From NCBI RefSeq assembly GCF_003574315.2, contig NZ_AP025739.1:2604001-2668000 (forward strand): a DNA stretch of 64,000 nucleotides. Reading direction: 5' to 3'. The notes below the pieces were generated by a model. That model did no database searches. It was not told the DNA's origin and was given only the letters and a program-made list of their open reading frames with translations. Of the stretch, positions 195 to 9,463 are shown one piece after another (position 1 is the stretch's first letter; each line of letters opens with the position of its first letter). This DNA comes from Capsulimonas corticalis. GTDB taxonomy: Bacteria; Armatimonadota; Armatimonadia; Armatimonadales; Capsulimonadaceae. Made by a program: the position numbers and the translations under genes.

Positions 195-641
195 ATGTCG
201 AACAAATATAAGATTTCCGTAGCGGTTATTGCTGGAATTGCAACCTTGGGCTTGGCGAGTCTGACGGCGGCGAAGCCGGCGGCCGCCGCGAACCCGGCGC
301 ATACGCTGACCGCGCAGGCGCGGTCGAATTGGGACGGCGGCTACGATCAGAACAACTGGCGCGATCGCAACGTCCAGTCTGCGAGTTTTAGGGATCGCCT
401 GCGCAACGCCGAGCGTGAGCGCCGCGAGCGTGAAATTCGCGAGCGCGAATGGCGCCGCAATCACGACCGTGATGACCAGCGCAATTGGGACCGCGACCAC
501 GCTCGCGACGATCGCAATCAGTGGGATCGCGGCAACCACGATGGCTGGGATAAAGACCACAACGGCCATCGCGATCGTGACGACCGCCACGACCGCGACG
601 ACCATCGCAATTGGGACCGGGATCAGGATCACAACCGCTAA
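195..641 (+). CDS. Secreted Asp/Arg/His-rich protein
   Basis: A 148-residue protein of unknown function. The ATG at 195 is preceded by a clear GGAGGA at 185-190. Residues 1-32 form a signal peptide (basic start, hydrophobic core, Ala-rich end), so the product is probably exported. From about residue 55 onward it is extremely rich in Arg, Asp, His, Asn and Trp, with many RD, HD and NWDRD-type units, giving a highly charged, probably disordered chain. Metal or polyanion binding is conceivable from the His/Asp content but is only inference. No catalytic motif is visible. It stands alone, convergent with the membrane-protein gene to its right. Confidence 0.7.
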   Translation: MSNKYKISVAVIAGIATLGLASLTAAKPAAAANPAHTLTAQARSNWDGGYDQNNWRDRNVQSASFRDRLRNAERERREREIREREWRRNHDRDDQRNWDRDHARDDRNQWDRGNHDGWDKDHNGHRDRDDRHDRDDHRNWDRDQDHNR

Positions 642-3941: not shown

Positions 3942-4126
3942 TGTCGATATCCTTCGCTTCCTGTCGTTGCCAAACTCCTATCATTATTCCCTGTGGCGCA
4001 TCTTCACAATCGCCATTCCGGCGTCTTCCGGCCCATCGCGCGCGATATGGCCGAAATAACGACGGGCAGACGGAGGACGCATGTCCGCTGTCTGCCCGTC
4101 CGTCGTCTCGCAAGTCGCGGCTGCGT

Positions 4127-4516
4127 TTATTGCCGGGCGCGCGCGGCGATCATCTGCTGGAGTTTCGCCTTCTGATCGGGCGTCAGGATCGCCAGGACTT
4201 GATGACGCGTCGCCGTACGGATCGCGTCGATCTGGTCCGCCTGCTGGTCCAGCGTGAGCGACGGATCCCGCCGGATCGCGCGGACTTGCAGGAACGCGTT
4301 TTTTAGGATGGGCTTGATCTGCGTTTTCTGAGCGTCCGTCACGCCCAGGTATGCGGCGAGCTTCTGCATCCGCGCCTGAAACTCCTGCATGCGTGAAGCC
4401 GATTGGCCGGCCCGCGCGTCCTGCGCAAGCGCCGATGCGCTGAGCGCGACGGCTGTCCCCGCCGTCAGCGCAAAGGCCGCAGCGCAGAGCGCCATTTTGA
4501 AATTCGTTCTGAACAT
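4127..4516 (-). CDS. Spy/CpxP-like periplasmic LTXXQ protein (second copy)
   Basis: A 129-residue exported protein. Residues 1-32 are a signal peptide ending near 'ASALAQ'. The mature part is all-helical with a CpxP/Spy-type repeat: 'LGVTDAQKTQIKPIL' followed by 'LTPDQKAKLQQM', which contains the LTXXQ motif. Family members are ATP-independent periplasmic chaperones or envelope-stress modulators. It follows a paralogous Spy-like gene by 25 bp on the same strand, so both probably share one transcript controlled by the adjacent two-component system. It differs from its neighbour in carrying Ala/Arg-rich ends rather than a Gln/Met-rich tail. Confidence 0.72.
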   Translation of the reverse strand: MFRTNFKMALCAAAFALTAGTAVALSASALAQDARAGQSASRMQEFQARMQKLAAYLGVTDAQKTQIKPILKNAFLQVRAIRRDPSLTLDQQADQIDAIRTATRHQVLAILTPDQKAKLQQMIAARARQ

Positions 4517-4541
4517 GGGAGTTCTCCAAACGATATCGCCG

Positions 4542-4940
4542 CTAGGCGCCGCCCTTGCCTTTTCCGGACTGCTGCATCTTCTGCATCGCCTGCTGAACCA
4601 TCTGCATCAGCTGCTCCTGCTGCTGGGGCGTCAGGATCGGCTTGATTTGCTGAAAGGAGTCCATCACGATCTCTCGGGCCTTCGCTTTTTTCTCATCCGT
4701 GGTCAGGCTGCTGTCCGATTTGACGGACTTTAGCTGCTGCTTGGTCTTGTCCGTGATCGGCTTGATTTTGGCCTTTTGATCGTCTGACAGGTTAAGCTTG
4801 TCCATCGCCGCCTGCATCCGGTCGCCGCTCTGGGCGTGACGCCGTCCGCCTAGCCGGCCGGCGTGGGCCGCAACCGTCGGAAGAGTGCAGGAAGCGAGCG
4901 TGAGCGCCGCCATCATGAAGAGCTTTGTTTTTGTGTTCAT
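4542..4940 (-). CDS. Spy/CpxP-like periplasmic LTXXQ protein (first copy)
   Basis: A 132-residue exported helical protein. The ATG at 4940 has AAGGAAA upstream and opens a signal peptide (hydrophobic to about residue 26, 'VAAHAG'). Two repeat units are visible, 'LNLSDDQKAKIKPI' and 'ILTPQQQEQLMQM', the second being the LTXXQ motif. The tail is rich in Gln, Met and Lys. It is the first gene after the sensor kinase, 110 bp away, and has its own promoter with the operator that also stands before the response-regulator gene. Envelope-stress chaperone function is inferred from the family. Confidence 0.75.
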   Translation of the reverse strand: MNTKTKLFMMAALTLASCTLPTVAAHAGRLGGRRHAQSGDRMQAAMDKLNLSDDQKAKIKPITDKTKQQLKSVKSDSSLTTDEKKAKAREIVMDSFQQIKPILTPQQQEQLMQMVQQAMQKMQQSGKGKGGA

Positions 4941-4991
4941 CGTGGTTTCCTTTTCATTGACCGCCGCCGGGAGGCGCCGTGTGACGAAGGT

Positions 4992-5025
4992 AAGATACCG
5001 CGCAACTATGAAGCAACTCTGAACG
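4992..5025 (-). promoter_or_regulatory. Promoter and response-regulator box for the Spy-like genes
   Basis: On the minus strand the element CGTTCAGAGTTGCTTCAT (5008-5025) is identical to one upstream of the response-regulator gene. In both places it ends exactly 10 nt before a -10-like hexamer (here TATCTT, 4992-4997). Here AGTTGC also recurs with an 11-nt period, as OmpR-family sites often do. It probably replaces a normal -35 box and is activated by the phosphorylated regulator. Confidence 0.65.
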
Positions 5026-5049
5026 GCGCCGGCGCGGCGAAACGCGCCG

Positions 5050-6525
5050 CTACGCATGGGAAATGGAGGCGGGGAGGGTGACGCGGACCGTGGCGCCGGC
5101 GCCGAGCGCGCTTTCGATGGCGAGACTTCCGCCGTGGGCTTCGGCGATGGCGCGGCTGATGGCGAGGCCGAGGCCGGCGCCGCCGGTTTGCGCGGCCCGG
5201 GCGGTGTCGGGGCGGTAGAATCGGTCGCCCAGATGGGGGAGATGCTCCGGCGCGATGCCCGCGCCGTTGTCCCGCACCGAGACTTCGATCGTCGAATCCG
5301 CCTGACGCGCCGTGACGGTGATGGCGCCTTCGGGAGGCGTATGGCGGACGGCGTTAGTCAGCAAATTGGTGAACAAGCGCGTGAGCGAAGCGGAGGACCC
5401 GGGCGCCGCGAGCGCCGAGTCGCAGCTGACGGAGATGGGCGCCGCGCCTGGCTTGCCGGAGATCTCCCGGGCGGCGTTCAAAACATCGCAAAGCGACACG
5501 GGCGAGGGATCGATTTGCAGCGCGCCGGCGTCGGCGCGCGCCAGCGTCATCAGGTCGTCGATCGTGGCGCCCATCGTCTCCGCGACACGCGCGATGCGCG
5601 CGATCGTTTCCCGGTACTCGTCCGCCGGACGCTCTTTCGCGAGCGCGAGCGTCGCGTTGCCGAGGATCACGGTCAGCGGCGTGCGCAGCTCGTGGGATGC
5701 GTCGGCGGTAAAGCGCTCTTGCTGCGTGAACGCGGCCTCCAGACGGGCGAGCATCTGATTGAACGTCGCGGAAAGCGCGGCGAACTCGTCGTCGCCGGTC
5801 ACGGGGAGGCGCTGGGAAAGGCGGCGCGCTTCGATTTTCTGCGCCGCCTGCCGCAGATCGCGGATCGGGCGCATGGCGCGGTCTGTGAGAAACGCGCCGC
5901 CCAGTCCCGCCACCAGCAGCGCCGCCGGGATAAAGAGCAGGAGAGTGCGTGTGAGCATGCGCACGGTGCGCTGCACGCCGGCCAGGGACCGGGCAAGCTG
6001 GATGACGGCGACGACATCGCCGTTGTGCTGAACGGGGAGGGAGTAGACCCGCACCGGCGCGCCGTCGATCCGCACCGTTGAGAAATCCGGAACGCCGCGC
6101 AGAGACCGTGCGAATGTGACGGCGTCATGGGGCGCGCATGACTGTCCCGAGATCACGCTTCGTCCCTCCCGATCGAGGATCTTGACGGCGTAAGTGGGAA
6201 CATCGGGCTCTTCCGGCCCATCGAAGAGGCCGAGCAGACCTTCGCCCGCCACCGGCAGCCGGTCCCCGGCGTCCCCTCCGAGCAGTCCCAGTCGCCGGAG
6301 ACGAACGGCGGTAAGCACGGCGGCGCGCTGCCCGTCGGTCAGGCGCTCCCAGATGGCGACGGTCCGGGTGGCCCGAGTTTCCATCTCCGTGTCGAGCGAA
6401 TGTGTCAGGGTGATGCGTGTGACCGATCGAAAGGCCACGCCCAGCATGACCAGCACCAGCGCCAGCACGCAGACGTTCCAGAGCGCGAGCCGCCGGCGCA
6501 CGGAGTTAGCGGCGAACGGCCTCAT
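5050..6525 (-). CDS. Sensor histidine kinase of an OmpR-type two-component system
   Basis: A 491-residue inner-membrane kinase. The ATG at 6525 overlaps the stop of the response-regulator gene (ATGA), which fixes the start. Order: TM1 at about 14-34; a periplasmic sensor of about 155 residues with one Cys (C130, 'GQSCAPHD'); TM2 at about 192-214; HAMP; the H-box 'DASHELRTPLT' with His278; the N-box 'LLTNAVRHT'; the G1 box 'VRDNGAGI'; and 'TGGAGLGLAI'. All catalytic boxes are intact. The architecture matches CusS/heavy-metal or envelope-stress sensors. The downstream Spy-like genes point to an envelope-stress signal (inference). Confidence 0.9.
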   Translation of the reverse strand: MRPFAANSVRRRLALWNVCVLALVLVMLGVAFRSVTRITLTHSLDTEMETRATRTVAIWERLTDGQRAAVLTAVRLRRLGLLGGDAGDRLPVAGEGLLGLFDGPEEPDVPTYAVKILDREGRSVISGQSCAPHDAVTFARSLRGVPDFSTVRIDGAPVRVYSLPVQHNGDVVAVIQLARSLAGVQRTVRMLTRTLLLFIPAALLVAGLGGAFLTDRAMRPIRDLRQAAQKIEARRLSQRLPVTGDDEFAALSATFNQMLARLEAAFTQQERFTADASHELRTPLTVILGNATLALAKERPADEYRETIARIARVAETMGATIDDLMTLARADAGALQIDPSPVSLCDVLNAAREISGKPGAAPISVSCDSALAAPGSSASLTRLFTNLLTNAVRHTPPEGAITVTARQADSTIEVSVRDNGAGIAPEHLPHLGDRFYRPDTARAAQTGGAGLGLAISRAIAEAHGGSLAIESALGAGATVRVTLPASISHA

Positions 6526-7211
6526 CGCCCCTCCGTCGCGGCCGCCGGCGGCTTCAGCACATATCCCTGCCCATAAACCGAATGCAGCAGTTTGACCTCT
6601 CGTCCCGAATCGATCTTCTTGCGCAGAAGCCCCAGATGGACATCGACGGTGTTGGATAGAATCTCTTCGTCCTGCCAAACGTCTTCCAGAATGAACTCGC
6701 GGCTAAGCACCACGCCCGGCCGGGTCGCGAGCGCCTCGAACAGCGTGTATTCCCGGCTGGTGAGAACGAGCGGGCGGCCCGCGCGCGTGACCCGCCTCGT
6801 GTGCGTGTCCAGTTCAATATCGTCGATCGTAATATGCCGTCCTTTGTGCAGCCGATCCCGCCGAATCAGCGCCTGCACGCGCGCCTCCAGCTCCGCGAAG
6901 TCGAATGGCTTCGGCAGATAATCGTCCGCCCCCATCCGAAGCCCGCGTACGCGGTCCGGCACCGAATCGCGCGCCGTCAGCATCAGGATCGGCGTCGCAA
7001 CGCCCCGCTGGCGCAGCTCTTCACAGACGCTCCAGCCATCGCGCAGGGGCAGCATCAGATCCAGGATAATCAGCGCAAACAGCTCCTCCGTCGCCGTCCG
7101 CAGCCCCGCCTCCCCATCCCGGCAAACGGTCACGCGGTAACGCTCCTCCTCCAGCCCCCGCTGCACAAACTCCGCGATCTCCGCCTGATCCTCCACCAGC
7201 AAAACCCGCAT
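6522..7211 (-). CDS. OmpR/PhoB-family response regulator
   Basis: A 229-residue transcription factor. The receiver domain has the acidic pair E7/D8, phospho-acceptor Asp51 ('IILDLMLP'), Thr79 and Lys101 ('LPKPF'). The C-terminal winged helix is complete, with 'LTSREYTLFEALATRPG' and the ending 'VYGQGYVLK'. It overlaps the kinase gene by 4 bp, so translation is coupled. The identical operator before this gene and before the Spy-like genes suggests autoregulation plus control of those genes. A decayed copy of this gene's 5' end and promoter lies about 2 kb upstream, at 9243-9352. Confidence 0.92.
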   Translation of the reverse strand: MRVLLVEDQAEIAEFVQRGLEEERYRVTVCRDGEAGLRTATEELFALIILDLMLPLRDGWSVCEELRQRGVATPILMLTARDSVPDRVRGLRMGADDYLPKPFDFAELEARVQALIRRDRLHKGRHITIDDIELDTHTRRVTRAGRPLVLTSREYTLFEALATRPGVVLSREFILEDVWQDEEILSNTVDVHLGLLRKKIDSGREVKLLHSVYGQGYVLKPPAAATEGR

Positions 7212-7576
7212 GGCTTGACAGCCCTCCGCCCGGATTCTACCCGGCGATCATGAAGCAACTCTGAACGATTGGTGTGTGTAATGATTTGTGTTGACGTCCA
7301 AACTCCGTTTTGCGTGCGCCCGATAGCTTTAACAGGAAAGAGACACTGGCAGTCGCTGGAATAAATGATAAATTCCACTGGCAGCCGACACTCCGCCATT
7401 TCGTCGGCTGAGAGTCGGCATTCTTCGTCTATTCGGTGATCCATGGGCCATATGTTTCCTTCACGCCAAACTAGCAATGCGTTGAGAGCGTCTTTGCCCT
7501 GCCATTCCAATAACGCCGCGCCGCAATTTGGACAGAGAATTTGTTCACGCGGCTCGTACCAATCGAACATTCCCAT
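7130..7576 (-). CDS. Small zinc-ribbon-like hypothetical protein with overrunning C-terminus
   Basis: The reading frame from ATG 7576 encodes 148 residues. The N-terminal 'MGMFDWYEPREQILCPNCGAALLEWQGKD' region, described here by its CPNC knuckle at about residues 15-18, resembles small proteins with a single CxxC-type ribbon. A second Cys pair could be C82/C84 ('SDCQC'). The last 50 or so residues are translated from the promoter and first 82 bp of the response-regulator gene in another frame and look unlike a folded domain, so the gene may have lost its original stop codon. Function unknown. It follows the membrane-protein gene at 7638-8351 by about 60 bp. Confidence 0.45.
   Translation of the reverse strand: MGMFDWYEPREQILCPNCGAALLEWQGKDALNALLVWREGNIWPMDHRIDEECRLSADEMAECRLPVEFIIYSSDCQCLFPVKAIGRTQNGVWTSTQIITHTNRSELLHDRRVESGRRAVKPCGFCWWRIRRRSRSLCSGGWRRSVTA
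7234..7267 (-). promoter_or_regulatory. Autoregulatory promoter and box for the two-component operon
   Basis: On the minus strand CGTTCAGAGTTGCTTCAT (7250-7267) is followed after 10 nt by TAGAAT (7234-7239). The 18-mer is identical to the one at 5008-5025 and has the same distance to its -10 box. No separate -35 consensus is present, which is expected for an activator-dependent promoter. Confidence 0.65.
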
Positions 7577-9116: not shown

Positions 9117-9242
9117 GGGAGCCTTCTTAATGATACAGACACGAAATGGGTTACGGAGACGTTTCTGCGCAACACGATACAACACAATTATGCGGGTGAC
9201 GATGGCTCGTCGCCCTGGCTTCAGCGGCATGTGGCGGTCTGG

Positions 9243-9352
9243 TCTAGGATAATCAGCGCAAGCAGCTCCTCCTTCGTAAACTCCGCCTAATCCTCAATCT
9301 GCAACATCCGTGTGGCTTGACAGCCCTCCGCCAGGAGTCTACCCGAAGATTG
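9243..9352 (-). pseudogene. Remnant of a duplicated response-regulator 5' end and promoter
   Basis: This stretch aligns by eye with 7061-7249, the start and promoter of the intact response regulator. Shared blocks include 'aggataatcagcgcaa', 'agctcctcc', 'aaactccgc' and 'ggcttgacagccctccgcc'. About 72 bp plus a 9-bp block are missing from the copy, and the frame meets a stop after six codons (M-L-Q-I-E-D). The -10-like box persists as TAGACT, but the 18-bp operator does not. It is a non-coding relic in the 348-bp gap between the GIN gene and the isomerase-like gene. Confidence 0.65.
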
Positions 9353-9463
9353 TGACGTAATTTCGAGCCTGGGAATCTGGAGCCAAATTTTGGACCCGCC
9401 GGGGGTATAGTGATCTTCCTAACGATCGCGCTACCTAAGAACCCAACAAACGGAGAGTTTCGC

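Follow-up and report, generated by a model that had tools for sequence, protein, structure and literature searches.

The locus studied here encodes a two-component system and, immediately behind it, two small secreted proteins of the LTXXQ kind in Capsulimonas corticalis, a member of the Armatimonadota. One and the same 18-mer stands before the response regulator (RR) gene and before the first of the secreted-protein genes. This raises the question of whether the 18-mer is part of an operator and, if so, which regulator would bind it, with what effect and at which other genes. The locus was analysed within a stretch of 64,000 nucleotides, hereafter the window (contig NZ_AP025739.1, positions 2,604,001 to 2,668,000).

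Anatomy of the two promoters

The genes follow each other on the minus strand in the order RR, kinase, LTXXQ1 and LTXXQ2 (Table 1), and the kinase gene overlaps the stop codon of the RR gene. According to a first-pass annotation, the 18-mer ATGAAGCAACTCTGAACG is present in identical copies at 5008-5025 and 7250-7267 of the plus strand (CGTTCAGAGTTGCTTCAT on the minus strand), each ending 10 nt before a -10-like hexamer and neither preceded by a -35 box. This description was confirmed in full, no sigma-70 site being found in 4100-7350. The copy at 7250 is located upstream of the RR gene, the copy at 5008 between the kinase stop codon and LTXXQ1.

The meaningful unit should be redrawn as a 22-bp pair of 11-bp direct repeats rather than the 18-mer. 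The two repeat halves are identical at 10 of 11 positions in operator 2 (TTCAGAGTTGC TTCATAGTTGC) and at 7 of 11 in operator 1 (TTCAGAGTTGC TTCATGATCGC). On the coding strand the core of the operator reads TTCA-N7-TTCA, followed by 11 nt and then by the -10 hexamer. A direct repeat with a period of ~11 bp beside the -10 characterizes OmpR/PhoB-type operators and is found both in the window and in homologues.

Table 1. Features of the two-component locus, in positions of the window
Feature	Position	Strand	Basis
Operator 1, 11-bp direct repeat TTCAGAGTTGC-TTCATGATCGC, before the RR gene	7244..7265	(-)	Sequence; genome-wide pattern; conserved before RR orthologues
-10 hexamer TAGAAT, 11 nt past the second TTCA	7234..7239	(-)	Sequence; 11-nt spacing fixed in homologues
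RR, OmpR/PhoB family, 229 aa, receiver and winged helix	6522..7211	(-)	
Sensor histidine kinase, HAMP, HisKA and HATPase_c, 491 aa	5050..6525	(-)	Pfam
Operator 2, 11-bp direct repeat TTCAGAGTTGC-TTCATAGTTGC, before LTXXQ1	5002..5023	(-)	Sequence; genome-wide pattern; near-identical promoter at C1:160836
-10 hexamer TATCTT, 11 nt past the second TTCA	4992..4997	(-)	Sequence; genome-wide pattern
LTXXQ1, secreted Spy/CpxP-like protein, 132 aa	4542..4940	(-)	
LTXXQ2, secreted Spy/CpxP-like protein, 129 aa	4127..4516	(-)	

The coincidence had been called very unlikely to arise by chance. This stands for the number of window matches at up to three mismatches (2 against 0.02 in shuffled sequences) and not for the exact 18-mer repeat alone, which is not so rare: the window holds nine other repeats of at least 18 bp, and Markov-shuffled windows average 0.65 repeated 18-mers. 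The repeat owes its significance to its location before two gene starts, to the exact -10 spacing and to its recurrence across the genome and between species.

Recurrence in the genome and in the phylum

Genome statistics were obtained from pattern searches with built-in controls. The pattern TTCA-N7-TTCA-N{10,12}-TANNNT was scanned over the 7,645,051-bp genome with the reversed pattern as control, and site-to-start distances were judged by reading ORFs. Nineteen matches were found, 18 with a gap of 11 nt, one with 12 and none with 10; the reversed control gave 3, and the composition-based expectation for the gap-11 pattern is ~0.5. Many random copies outside promoters, named beforehand as grounds for rejecting the proposal, did not appear: 17 of the 18 sites lie at most ~130 nt from a start codon, in the right direction. 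When the genome was scanned for the 18-mer with two mismatches, one further good site was retrieved (C1:160852, before a redoxin gene) together with one match within an ORF. Matches at two to three mismatches at C1:4927873, 5337303, 6751333 and 7359126 were rejected as sites: they lie in or across ORFs without the -10 geometry and are taken as chance, since the reversed-pattern control also gives 3.

Gap-11 sites are present upstream of the window RR and of both its close paralogues (C1:2006711 and C1:2193005; ~61% identical), and all three systems possess a second site behind the kinase gene. The gene behind the kinase differs from one system to another: the LTXXQ pair in the window, a DUF5666-like secreted protein and an RND membrane-fusion protein in the other two, the last being an RND part of CusB/HlyD type (sister system at C1:2.19M). 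The window-type box TTCAGAGTTGCTTCAT occurs once more in the genome, at C1:160836, ahead of the redoxin gene and of a second gene, whose product carries a copper type II monooxygenase domain (Cu2_monoox_C, 34.5 bits). This promoter (L077, minus strand) shares 39 of 43 bases with the promoter at 5008, from the repeat to past the -10. The two are also alike after the -10, as in a transplanted or duplicated promoter. The remaining sites precede ORFs for prepilin-like proteins, a di-haem peroxidase-like protein, an M48 protease, GspE, a dioxygenase and small secreted proteins. DUF5666-like or similar small secreted proteins recur behind the site across several genomes (L050, L268, L270, L272, and C1:2005049 and 2933975 in the genome studied here), one DUF5666-like protein giving a weak CusF match.

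Among 41 relatives, an RR orthologue was identified in 26. Within the 955 kb that surround these orthologues, the distance from TTCA-N7-TTCA to TANNNT is 11 nt in 26 places and 9 nt in one, while gaps of 10, 12 and 13 nt occur in no place. Within 170 bp upstream of 41 RR genes, TTCA-N7-TTCA precedes 19, the best score of 2,560 tetramer/gap combinations (mean 0.16), and the nearest runners-up overlap TTCA-N7-TTCA itself; in 14 of 17 cases the distance from this repeat to the -10 is 11 nt. Across 121 genomes of the phylum the pattern has 217 occurrences and its reversed control 77, the figures for the window's own order being 79 and 13; some genomes are at chance level, so single matches there mean little. 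About half of the RR homologues are devoid of the exact box, including the closest one (G033, 68-69% identical), and the box does not cluster on the RR tree, which has many weak branches, beyond what shuffling gives.

The box was rejected as a general trait of such RRs outside the phylum: the same geometry was found at one of 80 RR loci from other phyla, that of Lysinibacillus antri (L184), 64 bp before the RR gene (TTCAGAGTTTTTTCATCTTAGTTTCTTATAAT). Two genomes of relatives, G007 and G010, contain many sites of near-fixed sequence (TTCATGACTTCTTCA). YHYH-type secreted proteins are encoded behind the site in G007, G010, G012 and G013 (L244, L248, L252 and L254; Pfam check for L244 only).

The LTXXQ genes provide a second line of comparison. 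Among ~113 LTXXQ matches in the genomes of the phylum, seven (in G007, G010, G014, G020, G052, G062 and G093) are preceded by a site on the same strand, 236 to 501 bp away from the Pfam match; with 0.02 expected, seven LTXXQ genes directly behind a site correspond to P ~3e-16. Six of these proteins (G020, G007, G093, G052, G062 and G014) score 28.9 to 37.1 bits over their whole length, above the Pfam cut-off of 24.3, and several contain, as judged by eye, two LTXXQ units in a Gly/Pro-rich secreted protein. In G020, G007, G010 and G093 the LTXXQ gene adjoins, divergently, an RR gene of the same family. Small LTXXQ orthologues of the window type were considered as conserved targets and rejected; elsewhere in the order they lie at another locus, behind an SDR gene and without a box. 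The link of the window genes is thus local, and the window pair seems, from this comparison, to have been recruited locally into a scheme of older date. The earlier proposal that the RR activates its own operon and the LTXXQ genes is nevertheless well supported by comparison, with the box recurring far above chance upstream of RR orthologues throughout the phylum and of LTXXQ genes from other families.

Could the shared sequence be a mere leftover of local promoter or gene duplication, devoid of regulatory meaning? The locus does duplicate, as the near-identity of the promoters at 5008 and C1:160836 illustrates, and as does a degenerate version of the RR promoter and of the beginning of the RR gene at ~9238-9360 (minus strand). 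This RR gene relic retains 20 bp identical to 7211-7230 and a 39-bp piece resembling the RR codons for ELFALIILDL; it has lost the start codon, acquired an in-frame stop and lost the TTCA repeat. The copies at 5008 and 7250 agree over the operator and the -10 position but differ around them (3/10 upstream, 3/11 downstream), which argues against a merely local duplication. The same geometry is moreover found across families with unrelated spacers. Duplication is refuted as the sole explanation by this cross-species recurrence, and the idea retains hardly any credibility.

The regulator, its relatives and its signal

The window RR matches Pfam Response_reg (PF00072, 95.1 bits) and Trans_reg_C (PF00486, 72.2 bits), both above cut-off, and so has the receiver and DNA-binding domains that define the OmpR/PhoB family. 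The locus had been likened to CpxR/CpxP, a likeness not borne out for the regulator itself: the heavy-metal CopR/CopS models fit the RR and the kinase far better. The top NCBIfam models are the heavy-metal RR TIGR01387 (223.7 bits, under its cut-off of 279.2) and the heavy-metal sensor kinase TIGR01386 (250.5 bits, under its cut-off of 292.55); both proteins thus miss the curated cut-offs of this subfamily, though its models are the best of all. The CpxR and CpxA models score 128 bits against a cut-off of 341 and 133 against 486, and the PhoB equivalog 179 against 296. These scores place both proteins nearest to the heavy-metal CopRS/CusRS subfamily and not to CpxR. In its 11-bp repeats the box follows the PhoB/CopR type, to which CpxR boxes do not belong.

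The secreted proteins are more divergent. LTXXQ2 reaches 24.0 bits with Pfam LTXXQ (PF07813; cut-off 24.3), LTXXQ1 has no Pfam match, and the two are 31% identical; LTXXQ1 weakly matches the NCBIfam CpxP family, and LTXXQ2 the CpxP family and Spy models. AlphaFold (AF2) predicts four helices for each with modest confidence (pLDDT 67-70). With these modest-confidence models, the top Foldseek matches are STV (Spy-like), Spy and CpxP for LTXXQ1, and Spy and CnrX for LTXXQ2; VIA-align Z values of 6-8, which are close to background for helical bundles, were given no weight. Another small secreted protein, encoded at 195-641 (plus strand) of the window, consists of repeats rich in Arg, Asp, His and Asn (RDRDDRHDRDDHRNWDRD).

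The layout of the window promoters has close parallels in known regulators. A Pho box comprises two direct repeats of 11 nt, to which the regulator binds head to tail, and Streptomyces coelicolor PhoP recognizes GTTCACC units (PMC4415409). The Escherichia coli phoA promoter, located before phoA in E. coli genomes, reads GTCA-N7-GTCA-N11-TATAGT: as in the window, two 11-bp direct repeats of core xTCA-N7-xTCA take the place of the -35, exactly 11 nt from the -10. The core is however GTCA there and TTCA here, and the targets read behind the 18 genome sites include no pst/pho or other phosphate gene. The copper RR CopR of Corynebacterium glutamicum was mapped by EMSA to TGAAGATTTgaTGAAGATTT (PMC3140484), whose complement is TTCA-N7-TTCA. 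CopRS is an autoregulated extracytoplasmic-stress system acting on an 11-bp direct repeat (PMC3140484), as is predicted for the window system; it differs in having a single site in a divergent copper-resistance region, compared with ~18 sites and no copO/copB neighbours here. The phoA-like layout, together with the match to the CopR repeat, makes it most likely that the box is a class II activator site at which the neighbouring OmpR-type RR acts. The 18-mer would thus very probably be the conserved core of an operator for the RR encoded at 6522-7211, driving the RR-kinase operon, the LTXXQ pair and the redoxin/copper-monooxygenase pair.

The direction of control is not visible in the sequence itself, and the box might conceivably be a repressor site or an activator site of an unrelated factor. 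Such a role is improbable: an 11-bp direct repeat, spaced as for PhoB, in the place of a -35 fits RR activation, as does the presence of the box at 19 of 41 promoters of this RR family.

A more serious alternative concerns the identity of the bound protein. The boxes could be occupied mainly by one of the paralogous regulators (the C1:2.007M or 2.193M system); or all three could bind them, forming a common network to which the window RR is one input among others. All three RR genes have a TTCA-N7-TTCA-N11 site upstream, and the recognition helices are nearly identical (SNTVDVHLGLLRKK, SNTVDVHIGLLRKK, SNTVDVYVGLLRRK); with the TTCA core also shared, the assignment of each RR to its sites is uncertain. 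Against such sharing, TTCAG and the spacer AGTTGC are common to all three window-type boxes (two in the window, one at C1:160836) and distinguish them from the boxes of the other two systems, which suggests some system specificity. Binding chiefly by a paralogue or by all three is accordingly considered rather unlikely, and the window RR is retained as the principal candidate.

As to the signal, the system may be of the copper-type CopRS/CusRS kind, its LTXXQ proteins being periplasmic metal binders like CnrX or ZraP instead of folding chaperones. This is a refinement of the class II activator explanation and is compatible with it. In its favour are the best NCBIfam models, the CnrX structural match, the repeat core shared with C. 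glutamicum CopR (PMC3140484), and targets that include the copper type II monooxygenase, the CusB/HlyD-type fusion protein and the DUF5666 protein with its weak CusF match. Conversely, the RR and kinase fall under the curated cut-offs, the sensor segment of the kinase has no obvious His/Met cluster by eye, no metal efflux genes adjoin the window locus, and other sites precede pilins, the M48 protease and GspE, not metal genes. On balance a dedicated metal system is a tentative proposal, with a chance somewhat short of even.

Other stress systems resemble the predicted circuit in organization. In E. coli, BaeR, CpxR and ZraR control their own genes together with spy, cpxP or zraP, BaeR acting on its own operon, mdtA and spy (PMC7657598); the window RR is predicted from the sites to control its own genes and a Spy/CpxP/ZraP-type gene alike. 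BaeR also controls an RND pump (PMC7657598, PMC12503329), and the sister system at C1:2.19M has its RND fusion protein. BaeR and CpxR are nonetheless not the closest to the window RR (145 and 128 bits, against 224 for the heavy-metal RR). The secretion-stress system CssRS of Bacillus subtilis has a box TTTTCACA (quoted in PMC6749698) that likewise contains a TTCA core, its known targets being HtrA proteases and not LTXXQ proteins. The Streptomyces CutR box (TAWATAAA) differs from that of the window and was set aside, and no box sequence for comparison was found in the literature on cyanobacterial CopM/CopRS and NrsR.

The predicted circuit and its significance

In the proposed mechanism, two RR molecules would bind head to tail on the two 11-bp repeats. 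The repeats would stand in for the -35 and bring RNA polymerase to the -10 hexamer, which follows after 11 nt. The RR would thereby activate its own RR-kinase operon, in a positive feedback, as well as the adjacent secreted LTXXQ pair and the distant redoxin/copper-monooxygenase pair at C1:160836. The most probable input to the kinase is an extracytoplasmic stress, either metal excess or oxidative or misfolding stress, and the LTXXQ proteins may serve as periplasmic chaperones or as a metal buffer. On a wider scale, the odds are about equal for and against a phylum-wide extracytoplasmic-stress regulon, in which several paralogous two-component systems per genome would share the rigid geometry TTCA-N7-TTCA-N11-TANNNT, with the spacer distinguishing one system from another; each copy would drive its own operon and a different set of periplasmic effectors (double-LTXXQ, DUF5666, YHYH, RND parts).

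Each piece of the system is of a known kind. In the open-licence papers searched on two-component systems in the phylum, nothing was found on this operator. The rigidity of the operator (11 + 11 + 11) allows its sites to be found by a simple pattern, and the result is a defined regulon that can be put to the test in a bacterial phylum that has received little study. With three sister systems in a single genome, the question of how paralogous regulators separate their targets can be addressed in a natural setting. Overall, the pairing of an autoregulated OmpR-type regulator with a Spy/CpxP-type protein, known from BaeR, CpxR and ZraR, appears to recur far outside the Proteobacteria.
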